From Clostridiales bacterium (GTDB lineage Bacteria > Bacillota > Clostridia > Oscillospirales > Oscillospiraceae): a stretch of 60,599 nucleotides of DNA. Location: positions 1 to 60,599 of the forward strand of contig JAAVHX010000036.1 in assembly GCA_014799475.1 (NCBI GenBank). Direction: 5' to 3'. Both the position numbers and the translations under genes were made by a program. Shown piece after piece: positions 20,249 through 45,711 of this stretch. How positions within the stretch are numbered: the first letter of the stretch is position 1; each line of letters begins with the position of its first letter. The notes under the pieces are model-generated. The model ran no database searches, was not told where the DNA came from, and was given only the letters and a program-made list of their open reading frames with translations.

Positions 20249-22135
20249 TTACGCCGCCTGGGCCAGAGCCGCCGCCAGCTTGGCAAAGAAGTCGTTGAAG
20301 ATGACCTGGGCTTCCTCGCCCATGATGACGTCATCCCACGCGCCAGCCAGCTCGATGAAGAGCTCGCCCTCGTCCAGCTTGATGCCGGCGAACACCGCAT
20401 AGCGGTTCAGGAACTCCTGGAGCTCGCCCTCGGGGCTGATCTCAAGGCTTTCCACGCTGCGCAGAACCAGGTCGTCGGGCCGGAAATTGCCGTCCTGGTC
20501 GGGCAGGGCAATGCCCATGTCCTGGGCCCAGCCGATGGCGACCGCCCAGTAGTGGTCCTCGGGCACGTCAGCAAAGGTAGACAGCTCCGCCTCGGGCTTG
20601 CCGCTCTGCTCCCACAGGTAGCCGATGGCATCCGCGCGGGTGAAGATACCGGCCAGAGGCACGTCCACATCCTCGATCTCGACGGTGTTGTCGTCGGGCA
20701 GGGGCAGGGGGTCAAGGGGCCGGGTCTCAACAAGGCCGCAGCCCCGCTGGCATTCGCGCTGCTCCTCGCCGGCCACGCCGGGGCCGGGCTGCTTGGTCAC
20801 GTGCCAATCGCCCATGTCGTGGTTGTCGGGGTCTATGGCAGTCTCCACCGTGTGGAGGGTCTTGCAGAACGGGCAGGTGTAGCTGATCGAGCCGTTTGCC
20901 ATACAGGTGGCTTCCTCGACAGTTCCGTCAAGGGTCTCCCAATACTTATCGGTGTGCAGAGCGCCTTCCGTAGTACCATCATGATACGTCACGGAAGTCC
21001 CTTCGTTCCCTACCTGGCCATTGCCGCAGATCGTGTTGTTGCCATCCGTAATAGTAAGGCCGTCCTCGCCACGCTTATCATAATAGATACCCGTGCAGCC
21101 GCCCTCATTATCTTGGATCACGCAGCCGTCGAAGGTAACGTTGAGGGCTTTGCAATTGCCCTGCCAAAGGGCGACACCGCCATGGTCATAGGTGCGGTTA
21201 TCGTCTTTGTCCACCCGGTTTCCTGTGATCGTGGTGTTCTTGACCGTAGCGTTAAGGCTTTGACCCCTCTCGTAGATGCCGAAGTCAATGGCGTCACCTT
21301 CCGCCACATTCCCCGTGATCGTGCAGTCCTCGATCGTGGCGTTCACGTTACCGGCGTGGGCCCGGAAATAAATCGTGCCGCCTTCCTCTGTGTAGTTGTT
21401 TTCCACGGTCACACCCTTAAGGGCCACATTCAGGGTAGAAGAGTCTTTTGCCTTCTCGGTGTTCTCCGCGCAAATGGCGGGACCCTGCGAGCGGTTTCCG
21501 CTGACAGAGCCGCCTTCCATGGTGAAGGAACCGTTGTTCTCCACGTATACCGCGCCGACGCCCATTGTGCCGGTGCCATCCTTGTAGCTCTCACCCGGCT
21601 TGGAGTTACTCCACGCGTTTCCGCCGGTGATCTTGCCGGTGCCCTCGCTGTCGGTGATGGTCAGGCTGCCGCCCGTCACGATCAGGACGGTGCCCTTGTT
21701 GAGGTCAGCGTCGTCAACCTCATTGCCATCTTCATCGTAGAACTTGCCGGTCTCGGCATCCAGTTCAGCGTCCGGGTTCAGGTCGATGTCGTGGCCGTTC
21801 AGCTCGATCGAGACCTCTTTATCAGTTCTCCAGAACCAAATGCCGCCGTTGTCTCGGTCCGCGTCCACATCCTTGTCAAACTCCACGTCTGCGTTGAGTT
21901 CGACCTTGCGGGTGCCGCCCTCGTCCCAGGCTTCGATCTCGTACCGATTTTCTTCCTCATTGAGCACGTTGCCGTAGCCATAGCGGCCGTCACCGATATC
22001 GACACCCGGCTTACCGTACTCGCCGTTGACGGCGTTTTGCAGGTCTTCAAAGCTCGCCGCGAAAGCGGGGGCCACCATGCTGACACACATGGCCAGGGAC
22101 AGGCCCACAGACAAAATCTTGTTCAATTTTTTCAT
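20249..22135 (-). CDS. Secreted beta-helix protein with SLH domain
   Basis: 628 residues. Signal peptide at 1 to about 27 (MKKLNKILSVGLSLAMCVSM ending PAFAA). The middle (about 80-380) looks like a parallel beta-helix with repeated segments such as IYFRAHAGNVNATIEDCTIT and VKNTTITGNRV. A cysteine-containing link (CPFCK, QRECQRGCG) follows at about 405-460, then an SLH-type domain from about 495 (FTRADAIGYLWEQSG, FADVPEDHYWAVAIGWAQDM, GNFRPDD). A surface adhesin or polymer-binding protein is likely. Expression appears controlled by three tandem c-di-GMP-I riboswitches in its leader. Codon use is less GC-extreme than in its neighbours. Confidence 0.82.
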   Translation of the reverse strand: MKKLNKILSVGLSLAMCVSMVAPAFAASFEDLQNAVNGEYGKPGVDIGDGRYGYGNVLNEEENRYEIEAWDEGGTRKVELNADVEFDKDVDADRDNGGIWFWRTDKEVSIELNGHDIDLNPDAELDAETGKFYDEDGNEVDDADLNKGTVLIVTGGSLTITDSEGTGKITGGNAWSNSKPGESYKDGTGTMGVGAVYVENNGSFTMEGGSVSGNRSQGPAICAENTEKAKDSSTLNVALKGVTVENNYTEEGGTIYFRAHAGNVNATIEDCTITGNVAEGDAIDFGIYERGQSLNATVKNTTITGNRVDKDDNRTYDHGGVALWQGNCKALNVTFDGCVIQDNEGGCTGIYYDKRGEDGLTITDGNNTICGNGQVGNEGTSVTYHDGTTEGALHTDKYWETLDGTVEEATCMANGSISYTCPFCKTLHTVETAIDPDNHDMGDWHVTKQPGPGVAGEEQRECQRGCGLVETRPLDPLPLPDDNTVEIEDVDVPLAGIFTRADAIGYLWEQSGKPEAELSTFADVPEDHYWAVAIGWAQDMGIALPDQDGNFRPDDLVLRSVESLEISPEGELQEFLNRYAVFAGIKLDEGELFIELAGAWDDVIMGEEAQVIFNDFFAKLAAALAQAA

Positions 22136-22149
22136 GTTCTTCTTCCTTT

Positions 22150-22171
22150 CTTTGCATATTCGGACGCAAAG
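22150..22171 (-). promoter_or_regulatory. Hairpin next to the ribosome site of the SLH gene
   Basis: Inverted repeat CTTTGC/GCAAAG between riboswitch 1 and the AGGAAG ribosome site. It could be the expression platform through which the riboswitches act on translation. Confidence 0.4.
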
Positions 22172-22173
22172 TG

Positions 22174-22264
22174 ATCCGGTAACCGAACGAGCTTAGAACC
22201 GCCAAGCAGTCTCAGCGGACCCTTAGCCTCTGGTTTTGCGTCCCACGGTTTCCCGCGGTTTGCC
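22174..22264 (-). ncRNA. Cyclic di-GMP-I (GEMM-I) riboswitch 1, gene-proximal
   Basis: Minus-strand hallmarks: GCAAACC (22257-22263), hairpin with a GGAAAC loop, GGGACGCAAAACC (22232-22244), CAGAGGCTAAGG, a variable P3 stem, then CGTTCGGTTACCGG closing near 22176. These are the conserved blocks of the GEMM-I aptamer. It is about 40 bp upstream of the start codon. Confidence 0.85.
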
Positions 22265-22265
22265 A

Positions 22266-22346
22266 TGCAACCGAACGGGCTTAGCGCGGAATCCCGCGCC
22301 TTAGCCTCTGGCTTTGCGTCCCATTGTTTCCAATGGTTTGCCAATT
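22266..22346 (-). ncRNA. Cyclic di-GMP-I (GEMM-I) riboswitch 2, middle
   Basis: Second tandem copy: GCAAACC (22335-22341), ATTGGAAACAAT stem-loop, GGGACGCAAAGCC (22310-22322), CAGAGGCTAAGG, a compact P3 stem (GCGCGGG/CCGCGC) and CCCGTTCGGTTGC near 22267. It abuts copy 1 with essentially no linker. Confidence 0.85.
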
Positions 22347-22366
22347 CCCCATCGGGGGGGTAGGTA

Positions 22367-22470
22367 CGACTGTGCAGCCGAACGAGCATAGGACGGGCCC
22401 GCGTTTCGCGAAAGTGACCGTCCGACAGCCTCTGGCTTTGCGCCCCATCGTTTCCGATGGTTTGCTATCG
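22367..22470 (-). ncRNA. Cyclic di-GMP-I (GEMM-I) riboswitch 3, promoter-proximal
   Basis: Third copy: GCAAACC (22459-22465), ATCGGAAACGAT stem-loop, GGGGCGCAAAGCC (22434-22446), CAGAGGCTGTCGG, a longer P3 arm and TCGTTCGGCTGC near 22372. It differs from the other two at one base of the GGGACGC block and in the 3' GGTTACC block, so ligand affinity may differ. Confidence 0.78.
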
Positions 22471-22494
22471 CGCCTCGCCTGCCACCCGCCGCCC

Positions 22495-22548
22495 TTAGGC
22501 GCATTGCGCGGCGGGCCGTTTCCCCGGCGGGCTGTCGATCATACGCAT
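22495..22548 (-). CDS. Short leader ORF upstream of the riboswitches
   Basis: A 17-codon frame MRMIDSPPGKRPAAQCA with ACGGAGGGG just upstream; the second ATG (22542) has the better 6-base spacing and would give 15 residues. It lies between the promoter hairpins and riboswitch 3. It could be a translated leader peptide or chance. Confidence 0.35.
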   Translation of the reverse strand: MRMIDSPPGKRPAAQCA

Positions 22549-22571
22549 CCCCTCCGTTCGTAGTACTTCTT

Positions 22572-22614
22572 GTTCGTGCTGCCCTTCAGCACGAACAAAG
22601 ACACATGTGTCTTT
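22572..22614 (-). other. Two adjacent perfect hairpins at the transcript 5' end
   Basis: An 18-bp palindrome AAAGACACATGTGTCTTT (22597-22614) immediately followed by GTTCGTGCTG/CAGCACGAAC (22572-22596). They would form at the very start of the SLH gene transcript; no T-run follows on that strand, so they are not a terminator. They may stabilise the leader RNA or bind a regulator. Confidence 0.6.
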
Positions 22615-22622
22615 GCGCTTTT

Positions 22623-22652
22623 ATTATAGCATAGGCCAAAAACAGAAATCAA
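22623..22652 (-). promoter_or_regulatory. Sigma-A promoter of the riboswitch-SLH gene unit
   Basis: Minus-strand TTGATT (22647-22652), 18-bp spacer, TATAAT (22623-22628). It gives a leader of about 480 nt before the start codon. Confidence 0.7.
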
Positions 22653-38052: not shown

Positions 38053-38081
38053 TTGAAATCCCCGGCTGAATCCCGTATACT
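38053..38081 (+). promoter_or_regulatory. Sigma-A promoter of the diguanylate cyclase gene
   Basis: TTGAAA (38053-38058), 17-bp spacer, TATACT (38076-38081). It shows that translation must begin downstream, at 38170. Confidence 0.7.
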
Positions 38082-38169
38082 ATACCTAAATTTAACATTG
38101 TTGGCCGGAAGCGGCGGGAATGCCTTTCCGACCTTCAGCGCGGTTTTTGCGCGCAGAACAGGGAGGAAT

Positions 38170-39087
38170 ATGGAAAATATATTGATCGTTGACGACAGCC
38201 CAGTGCAGGCCGCGCAGCTGAGGAGCATTTTAGACGACGAATACGCGGTCACCACGGTCCACACGGCGGAGGAGGGCCTTCACGCTGCCAGCTGCGGGGA
38301 CTTTTCCCTGATCCTGCTGGATGTGGTCATGCCGGACATGGACGGCTTCACGCTTCTGAAAAAGCTGCAGGAGGAGGTCATCACCCAGCAGATCCCGGTC
38401 ATTCTGATCACCAGTCTGGCGGAGATCGAGAGTGAGCAGAAGGGGCTCACGCTGGGCGCGGTGGACTACATCACCAAGCCCTTCCACCCGCTGATCGTCA
38501 AGGCCCGGGTACATACCCACGTCAAGCTGTACCAGTACCGCAGGCAGGTGGAATTCCAGTCCATGACCGATCAGCTCACCGGGGTGTACAACCGGCGGCG
38601 GCACGACCACTACAGCCGGGTCAAATGGCAGGAGGCCATCCGTCTGCAGATTCCGTTTTCTGTCTGTATGCTTGACATCGACAAATTCAAGGTGTACAAC
38701 GACACCTTCGGCCACCCCGCCGGGGACAAGGTCATCGTCAGCGTGGCGCAGGCGGCGGCCTCCCGCCTGCGGCGCCCCACCGACTTTTTCGCCCGCTACG
38801 GCGGGGAGGAATTTGTGGCCTTTCTGCTGGGTGACGAGGCGGAAAACGCTTTCGCGCACCTGAAAACCATCCGGCAGGCGGTGGAGGATCTCCATATCCC
38901 CCACAACCCGTCTGTCTCCCCGTGGGTCACCGTCAGCATCGGCGGGATCACCGTGGTGCCCCAGCCTGGCACCTCCTACGATACATATCTGAAAATCGCG
39001 GACGCCATGCTGTACGACGCCAAGCGGTTCGGCCGGAACCAGGTGATCTGGGCCGATGGAAAGGCCCAGTGCCAGCAGGAGAAATAG
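38170..39087 (+). CDS. Response regulator with GGDEF diguanylate cyclase domain
   Basis: 305 residues in a PleD/WspR-like REC-GGDEF layout. REC domain (1 to about 120): acidic pair D8-D9, phospho-acceptor D51 in LLDVVMPDMDG, K103 in ITKPF. GGDEF domain (about 133-300): active-site GGEEF (211-215) and an inhibitory I-site R202-x-x-D205 five residues before it, so an active, product-inhibited cyclase is predicted. The ATG at 38170 follows GGGAGG. No histidine kinase is adjacent. Its c-di-GMP could act on the triple riboswitch at 22.2-22.5 kb, which is an inference. Confidence 0.93.
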   Translation: MENILIVDDSPVQAAQLRSILDDEYAVTTVHTAEEGLHAASCGDFSLILLDVVMPDMDGFTLLKKLQEEVITQQIPVILITSLAEIESEQKGLTLGAVDYITKPFHPLIVKARVHTHVKLYQYRRQVEFQSMTDQLTGVYNRRRHDHYSRVKWQEAIRLQIPFSVCMLDIDKFKVYNDTFGHPAGDKVIVSVAQAAASRLRRPTDFFARYGGEEFVAFLLGDEAENAFAHLKTIRQAVEDLHIPHNPSVSPWVTVSIGGITVVPQPGTSYDTYLKIADAMLYDAKRFGRNQVIWADGKAQCQQEK

Positions 39088-45499: not shown

Positions 45500-45711
45500 T
45501 AATTCCCCTGCCGGGTTCTAACTACGTGACCTTGCCCTGTTAAAACCCACATTTCTAAAACGGGACGCCCCACTCGCGCGGCGGTTCGCAGACCTCCCGG
45601 CCCTCTTTGAAGGTATCTGGACGTTGGGAGCGGTAAAGCCAAGCGGAGGCGACCCACCTGCATTTTTGTGCAGGTTTTTAATGGGGCGGCACGGCCACGG
45701 CGGGGGAACCG
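45500..45711 (+). ncRNA. ssrS: 6S RNA
   Basis: A roughly 210-nt non-coding segment that folds into one long interrupted hairpin: TTCCCCTGCCG (45503-45513) pairs with CGGCGGGGGAA (45698-45708), and further in CGTG..GCCC..TTAAAACC pairs with GGTTTTTAAT..GGGGC..CACG. A small apical hairpin CCTGCA/TGCAGG is included. Length, closed stem and open centre fit the regulator that mimics an open promoter and sequesters sigma-A RNA polymerase. A terminator follows at 45721. Assigned by structure, not by a covariance search. Confidence 0.72.

Follow-up and report, generated by a model that had tools for sequence, protein, structure and literature searches.

The window, that is, the whole stretch of 60,599 nucleotides of Clostridiales DNA analyzed here, carries on its minus strand three tandem c-di-GMP-I aptamers followed by a single expression platform directly 5' of the Shine-Dalgarno (SD) region of a gene for a 628-aa protein (Table 1). 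In the reading that we prefer, to which we would give a little less than an even chance (about 0.48), the three aptamers act on one translational platform through competition for a strand, and the whole would behave as a steep OFF switch. At the level of sequence, the window shows three aptamers uninterrupted by any platform, a single conserved one after the last of them and complementarity between platform and aptamers. We regard this architecture as a variant of the tandem-aptamer riboswitch, with a predicted mechanism and a predicted direction of control.

Table 1. Positions of the array, its leader, its platform and related features in the window (aptamers are lettered in RNA order)
Feature	Position	Strand	Basis or remark
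Sigma-70-type promoter: TTGATT, 18-nt spacer, TATAAT, TG before -10	22623-22652	-	10/12 consensus matches; consensus match only
Two perfect inverted repeats, presumed transcript 5' end	22570-22615 (22596-22615 and 22570-22598)	-	Sequence
Short upstream ORF MRMIDSPPGKRPAAQCA, PP[W/G]xxPA motif	22495-22548	-	SD GGAGG at 22551-22555
GC-rich hairpin CCCGCCG/CGGCGGG, between upstream ORF and aptamer A	22485-22515	-	Sequence
Aptamer A (5'-most in RNA order)	22374-22466	-	RF01051 match; limits are Vc2 position 20 to C92
Aptamer B (middle copy)	22267-22342	-	RF01051 match; limits are Vc2 position 20 to C92
Aptamer C (adjoins platform)	22179-22264	-	RF01051 match; limits are Vc2 position 20 to C92
Shared platform CGGAT-CA-CTTTGC-GTCCG-AATAT-GCAAAG	22150-22178	-	Directly 5' of SD; conservation, folding, association with multi-copy arrays
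Platform stem S1: CGGAT/GTCCG	22174-22178/22161-22165	-	
Platform stem S2: CTTTGC/GCAAAG	22166-22171/22150-22155	-	
Shine-Dalgarno region AAAGGAAG	22142-22149	-	Sequence
Regulated gene, 628-aa protein	20249-22135	-	Signal-peptide-like start and SLH (residues 520-559)
GGEEF-domain protein, receiver-like N-terminal part (REC by eye)	38053-39087	+	Canonical Asp at substrate-selecting position

A cmscan of the whole window with RF01051 (the Rfam model of c-di-GMP-I, cut-off 35 bits) listed aptamer B at 22265-22352 (60.8 bits, E = 1.9e-9) and aptamer A at 22370-22476 (44.9 bits, E = 1.4e-5). Aptamer C was absent from this list and from a rerun on 541 bases, most likely owing to the overlap of its 5' flank with aptamer B, and scored 51.7 bits (22175-22264) when searched separately. 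With RF01051 searched against the organism's own genome, all three exceeded the cut-off (A, 44.9 bits, E = 1.2e-7; B, 65.9 bits, E = 8.7e-13; C, 56.7 bits, E = 1.5e-10). The original prediction of three c-di-GMP-I aptamers here, for which three covariance matches were expected, is thus confirmed by three minus-strand matches beyond chance, all above 35 bits, that of aptamer C only when searched apart or in its own genome. In the base numbering, which we take to be that of Vc2, aptamers B and C have G20, A47 and C92 all intact, and aptamer A keeps A47 and C92 and has A20 in place of G20. Its core carries this A before GCAAACC (Vc2 position 20) and GGGGCGCAAA in place of GGGACGCAAA, so that the core deviation previously ascribed to "copy 3" is real, this copy being aptamer A, the 5'-most in RNA order. 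We assign B and C fully to c-di-GMP-I and A with reservation.

The three aptamers lie close together, with 31 nt between A and B, 2 nt between B and C and 43 nt from C to the start codon. Three terminator-like sites were found in the region, none of them on the minus strand. There is thus no platform between the aptamers, as in tandem-aptamer riboswitches, and no sign of an expression platform belonging to each aptamer, as in the Bc3-5 type; intervening terminators of the latter architecture are ruled out in the window by the gap lengths together with the terminator scan.

Similar arrays recur in related Clostridia. Three more, of four, two and two aptamers, are present in the organism's own genome, and aptamers above the cut-off were present in 17 of 42 genomes of the genus and in 69 of 250 of the family (even draw). 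The platform pattern occurred in at least 116 stretches in named contigs, whose titles, among the matches listed, were mostly Oscillospiraceae, Lachnospiraceae and genera of these, with some others, e.g., Peptococcaceae, and included cultured strains. Taking as an array aptamers no more than 60 nt apart, we obtained 159 distinct arrays (identical ones removed; platform matches are those listed), of which 41 had one aptamer, 69 two, 39 three, nine four and one five. In the aptamer-anchored subset, i.e., the 64 arrays of the own genome and the genus found via the aptamer and not via the platform, 44 were multi-copy and 22 had three or more copies. The opinion that a triple array is rare does not hold, triples being common in this lineage (these 22 of 64) and already published, in the available parts of PMC4759541 and of PMC9481103 (12 triplets). 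The 177 within-array gaps (one negative value excluded, and gaps above 60 nt excluded by definition) had a median of 5 nt and a maximum of 31, with 158 at 11 nt or less. Such distances seem short for a terminator belonging to each aptamer, and the gap lengths therefore point to an architecture of several aptamers and one platform. In the five-copy array (L130:2024-2433, the same as L244 and G110:C12), both model R1 and RF01051 gave five matches, and the five aptamers precede one platform and an SLH protein. Four successive copies occur in a cultured strain, Flintibacter muris DSM 110149 (L202).

The platform accompanies the multi-copy arrangement. Within the aptamer-anchored subset it was found in 43 of 44 multi-copy arrays versus 4 of 18 single ones (two further single arrays at contig edges excluded). 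In unfiltered tails, the order 3' of the C92 of the last copy is, with exceptions, CGGA[TC], a short spacer, CTTTGC, [GA]TCCG, a variable spacer, GCAAAG and the SD. The hairpin that had been noticed at 22150-22171 is indeed present (CTTTGC/GCAAAG), and its proposed role as the output stage beside the ribosome-binding site appears likely, as it is conserved in related arrays as part of this longer platform. In 41 aligned platforms, 99.3% of 451 cells pair (27 to 43% when slid) and the covariation score is above all 500 shuffles, a support that is weaker than it looks because 40 of the 41 rows came from a pattern that fixes part of both stems, one being added by hand. S1 and S2 vary little across these platforms, and a two-sided change affected one pair only in the 41 rows, which was equalled by 24 of 500 shuffles. 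The few changes that are independent of the pattern, from unfiltered tails, are a two-sided change in S1 to CAGA/TCTG in L051 and a register-shifted S2 of TGCTG/CAGCA in L078. The geometry of S1 and S2 is compatible with an H-type pseudoknot, which the platform may possibly form. By eye, no P1 stem was seen for each copy in the arrays inspected, except in L063 and L075, where ATCCG could pair with CGGAT. Four single aptamers of the same genus (L090 to L093) are without the platform and show hairpins followed by T-runs like ordinary terminators, and by eye their output differs from that of the arrays.

The proposed link between aptamers and platform is the strand CTTTGCGTCC, whose reverse complement is the aptamer core GGACGCAAAG. 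Part of this core recurs in the SD-side GCAAAG, and by complementarity the partners of the strand are thus either GCAAAG or the aptamer cores. We propose that CTTTGCGTCC would pair either with the core (GGACGCAAA[G]) of aptamers that are unoccupied, B and C being the likeliest, or with the GCAAAG beside the SD, a pairing that CGGAT/GTCCG would assist and that may take the form of an H-type pseudoknot. Each aptamer occupied would mean one competing partner fewer; with most or all copies occupied, the strand would close the SD-side element and translation would be lowered (predicted OFF), a steep response that would need no contacts between aptamers. It had originally been suggested that three binding events in series could give a steep or multi-level response; any steepness would arise instead because a single platform serves all three aptamers, and not because complete riboswitches follow one another. 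It is also unlikely that c-di-GMP is bound equally three times, as aptamer A has A20 and is of a copy type whose ligand contacts differ in several relatives (see below). We infer that ligand is bound, that the pseudoknot forms and that control acts on translation and is of the OFF type; in this direction we have little confidence.

Folding of the window is consistent with this competition. In the unforced fold, CTTTGCGTCC was placed on aptamer B with a value of 0.41, on C with 0.24, on the SD side with 0.20 and near the end of A with about 0.14. When occupied aptamers were imitated by masking with N, a crude stand-in for a bound aptamer, SD-side pairing was 0.24 with no copy masked, 0.02 to 0.23 with one, 0.75 to 0.85 with two and 0.98 with all three, in nested folding that cannot model a pseudoknot, i.e., S1 and S2 together. 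The SD was 0.83 to 0.97 unpaired in every occupancy state, and no structure covering it appeared in the unforced window fold; the OFF effect would be steric, because the SD of the window stays mostly unpaired. Over the related arrays the picture is less uniform. Full occupation increases SD-side pairing in 82 of the 118 arrays folded (of 191). In the 101 multi-copy arrays folded, the strand in the empty state was mainly on the aptamers in 45 and already mainly on the SD side in 36, and full occupation placed it on the SD side in 49. Two four-copy arrays were not monotonic in SD-side pairing, namely L012 (0.19 empty, 0.91 with copies 2 and 3 occupied, 0.58 full) and L086 (0.09 empty, 0.96 with copies 1 to 3, 0.83 full). 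Folding thus suggests a vote among the aptamers that is clear in the window only, with mixed support over the 118 arrays.

The nature of the regulated proteins bears on the direction of the switch. The 628-aa protein had been described as a secreted beta-helix/SLH protein; the signal-peptide-like start stands, as does one SLH domain (21.1 bits, just above the Pfam cut-off of 20.8), while the beta-helix was not confirmed by Pfam, in which the only other match, AC_1, was below its cut-off. Downstream of the arrays, 101 of 127 distinct ORFs of at least 100 aa start in a signal-peptide-like manner (crude pattern), a PxTG-like motif lies within the last 48 residues in 31 of 74 complete ORFs, and Pfam gave SLH in five, a thioester domain in one and nothing in two of eight sampled proteins. 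The signal peptides of many downstream proteins are nearly identical within the genus (MKKLSKILSVGLSL...), as though leader and signal peptide had traveled as one cassette.

Surface adhesins would lead one to expect an ON switch, and induction of surface proteins by c-di-GMP is frequent. With the same array and platform, bound aptamers, above all the last, might abolish a structure obstructing the ribosome, and synthesis of the surface protein would then increase with c-di-GMP. We consider this somewhat unlikely, since folding puts an extra stem beside the SD when the aptamers are occupied (0.98 versus 0.24 in the window) and the unforced window fold has no structure over the SD to begin with. 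The large share of signal-peptide-like starts (101 of 127) speaks for it nonetheless, and with the window SD 0.83 to 0.97 unpaired in all states the S2 stem need not inhibit.

A second alternative is that the last aptamer alone drives the platform, the upstream copies being passive duplicates that expand and decay. Copy number does range from one to five, and four single-copy members carry the same platform. Aptamer A represents a type of copy (5'-most, 93-nt form) present in 13 arrays, the motif having caught 15 rows, two of which, L102 and L195, were excluded as belonging to another type. Four of these 13 have a change at A47 or C92, versus 1 of 324 among all other copies (end unassigned in 17 rows, and some ends assigned by a pattern that itself ends in C), which would fit decay; judging from these bases, the type seems to be losing ligand contacts. 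In folding, when the last copy alone was occupied, only 12 of the 101 multi-copy arrays had the strand chiefly on a different copy. Outside the copy-A type, however, A47 is kept in all but one of the 324 rows and C92 wherever the end was assigned, with the same proviso on ends, and copy B is the favored partner of the strand in the window folds. We hold passive upstream copies to be unlikely.

True cooperative binding via tertiary contacts of neighboring aptamers, as in glycine riboswitches, would find the aptamers within contact range, as 158 of 177 gaps are of 11 nt or less; no shared pairing between aptamers was noticed in the window fold, which is nested and blind to tertiary contacts, and we rate this mechanism as distinctly improbable. 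A pseudo-cooperative series of three riboswitches, each complete with a platform of its own as in Bc3-5, is the sole arrangement tabulated for c-di-GMP-I in the available part of PMC9481103, yet is very improbable here, where B and C, 2 nt apart, cannot accommodate a platform between them and no terminator-like site lies on the minus strand.

The identity of base 20 raises the question of the ligand. According to the available part of PMC6456294, this base decides the ligand, G being for c-di-GMP and A for c-AMP-GMP, and an A-to-G change at base 20 of a Geobacter riboswitch turned selectivity from cGAMP to c-di-GMP. Similarly, in the accessible sections of PMC9481103, the A20 copy of D. acetoxidans bound c-AMP-GMP markedly better in in-line probing. 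Aptamer A has the A at position 20 that marks GEMM-Ib. Its assignment as a dedicated c-AMP-GMP aptamer is weakened by the rest of its type, in which A20 occurs in only 3 of 13 aptamers (window, L057 and L067) and 4 of 13 depart from A47 or C92. Among 118 multi-copy arrays, the last copy has A20 in 48 and C20 in 13 (examples of either are L049, L074, L079, L086, L133 and L202), compared with A20 in 16 and C20 in 3 of 178 upstream copies. The bias of A20 was also found at the level of 88% similarity clusters (33 of 81 last versus 7 of 69 penultimate copies) and in the aptamer-anchored subset (10 of 44 versus 4 of 72, P = 0.008), the shared ancestry of arrays not being removed in these tests. A20 copies do not look decayed, because they keep A47 (68 of 69), C92 (66 of 66 with ends assigned, some by a pattern ending in C) and GAAA (69 of 69).

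As for the signal, the GGEEF protein of the window is a plausible source, and the own genome has two GGDEF domains, both of the Asp type. No Hypr-type GGDEF (Ser/Thr) was found in the 53 readable of 61 loci from 21 genomes (52 Asp, one Asn; eight unreadable), and no SMODS domain in the own genome. A c-AMP-GMP synthase was thus not detected in the organism, a result that is not final at 86.6% genome completeness. Because the matching synthase was not found, A20 may tune the affinity for c-di-GMP rather than change the identity of the ligand. A broader proposal, which we consider doubtful, is that one to five aptamers vote via a single strand that mimics the complement of the core, an unoccupied copy being able to hold the ligand-free state, and that the last aptamer is often retuned (A20 or C20, other contacts intact), so that a two-signal or graded-affinity gate would control surface proteins.

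The leader upstream of the array has elements of its own. The two inverted repeats behind the promoter share three bases, and the two hairpins therefore compete. Adjacent inverted-repeat pairs, with overlap allowed, were detected in 20 of 150 leaders and in none of them in each of five shuffles; without overlap allowed, in 1 of 150. Pairs with different letters are seen in leaders L078, L081, L083 and L089. Leaders L014, L043, L051 and L087 are without promoter hairpins and have in common an upstream stretch, CGACAAATT..TGCGTGAATTTGA, which by eye resembles the 3'-terminal part of a gene lying before it. PPW and PPG slow ribosomes, and the upstream ORF is possibly a ribosome-slowing leader peptide. 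The search demanded the two prolines of PP[W/G] and not the following PA, and it found PP[W/G] in frame after an SD and start in 46 of 132 nonredundant leaders, compared with a mean of 0.2 and a maximum of 2 in 100 mononucleotide shuffles and 0 on the reverse strand; in these 46 leaders, P follows in 39 and A in 35. GC-rich stems similar to the one between upstream ORF and aptamer A were seen by eye in other leaders among the matches listed. Elsewhere in the window, a 6S RNA (RF00013) was found at 45502-45710 on the plus strand (50.4 bits).

Several known systems resemble this one in part, as far as the available portions of the sources go. In Bc3-5 of Bacillus thuringiensis CT-43, as here, three class I aptamers stand in one 5' leader, and control was more stringent and digital than with one or two (PMC4759541). 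However, these are modeled as three independent riboswitches, each with a terminator and switching transcription ON, whereas the array described here has one platform adjoining the SD and no terminators between aptamers. Tandem glycine aptamers share the design of several homologous aptamers followed by one platform, and glycine quadruplets (16 examples) are described as two two-aptamer riboswitches (PMC9481103). In our case the ligand and aptamer are others, up to five aptamers precede the platform, and the proposed coupling is via a shared competing strand and not via contacts between aptamers. The A20 of aptamer A and of 48 of 118 last aptamers recalls the Geobacter c-AMP-GMP riboswitches (GEMM-Ib; PMC6456294), from which our case differs in that no Hypr-type GGDEF was found (53 readable of 61 loci) and no SMODS in the own genome. 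The AdoCbl/c-di-GMP/c-AMP-GMP series of D. acetoxidans likewise has G20 and A20 variants in one genome, in independent riboswitches with putative terminators (PMC9481103), whereas both variants here occur in one array before one platform. The same source tabulates c-di-GMP-I with multiple platforms (347 doublets, 12 triplets), and the available text of PMC12452182 describes c-di-GMP as enriched in tandemly arranged complete riboswitches, some of them triples. We found no report of a c-di-GMP-I design with several aptamers and one platform in the literature on tandem, triple and quadruple arrays, on these families and on polyproline leaders, most subscription papers lying outside this coverage. 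The triple array as such is known; what is new lies in the shared platform, the scale of its occurrence in the lineage and the retuned last aptamer.

Many genes for secreted proteins, also in Flintibacter muris DSM 110149, are preceded by up to five aptamers that have one platform in common. If true, coupling through one competitor strand complementary to a common core would represent another type of mechanism; in view of the clustering of A20 in the last copy, it may be asked whether a second cyclic dinucleotide is sensed or affinities are graded.
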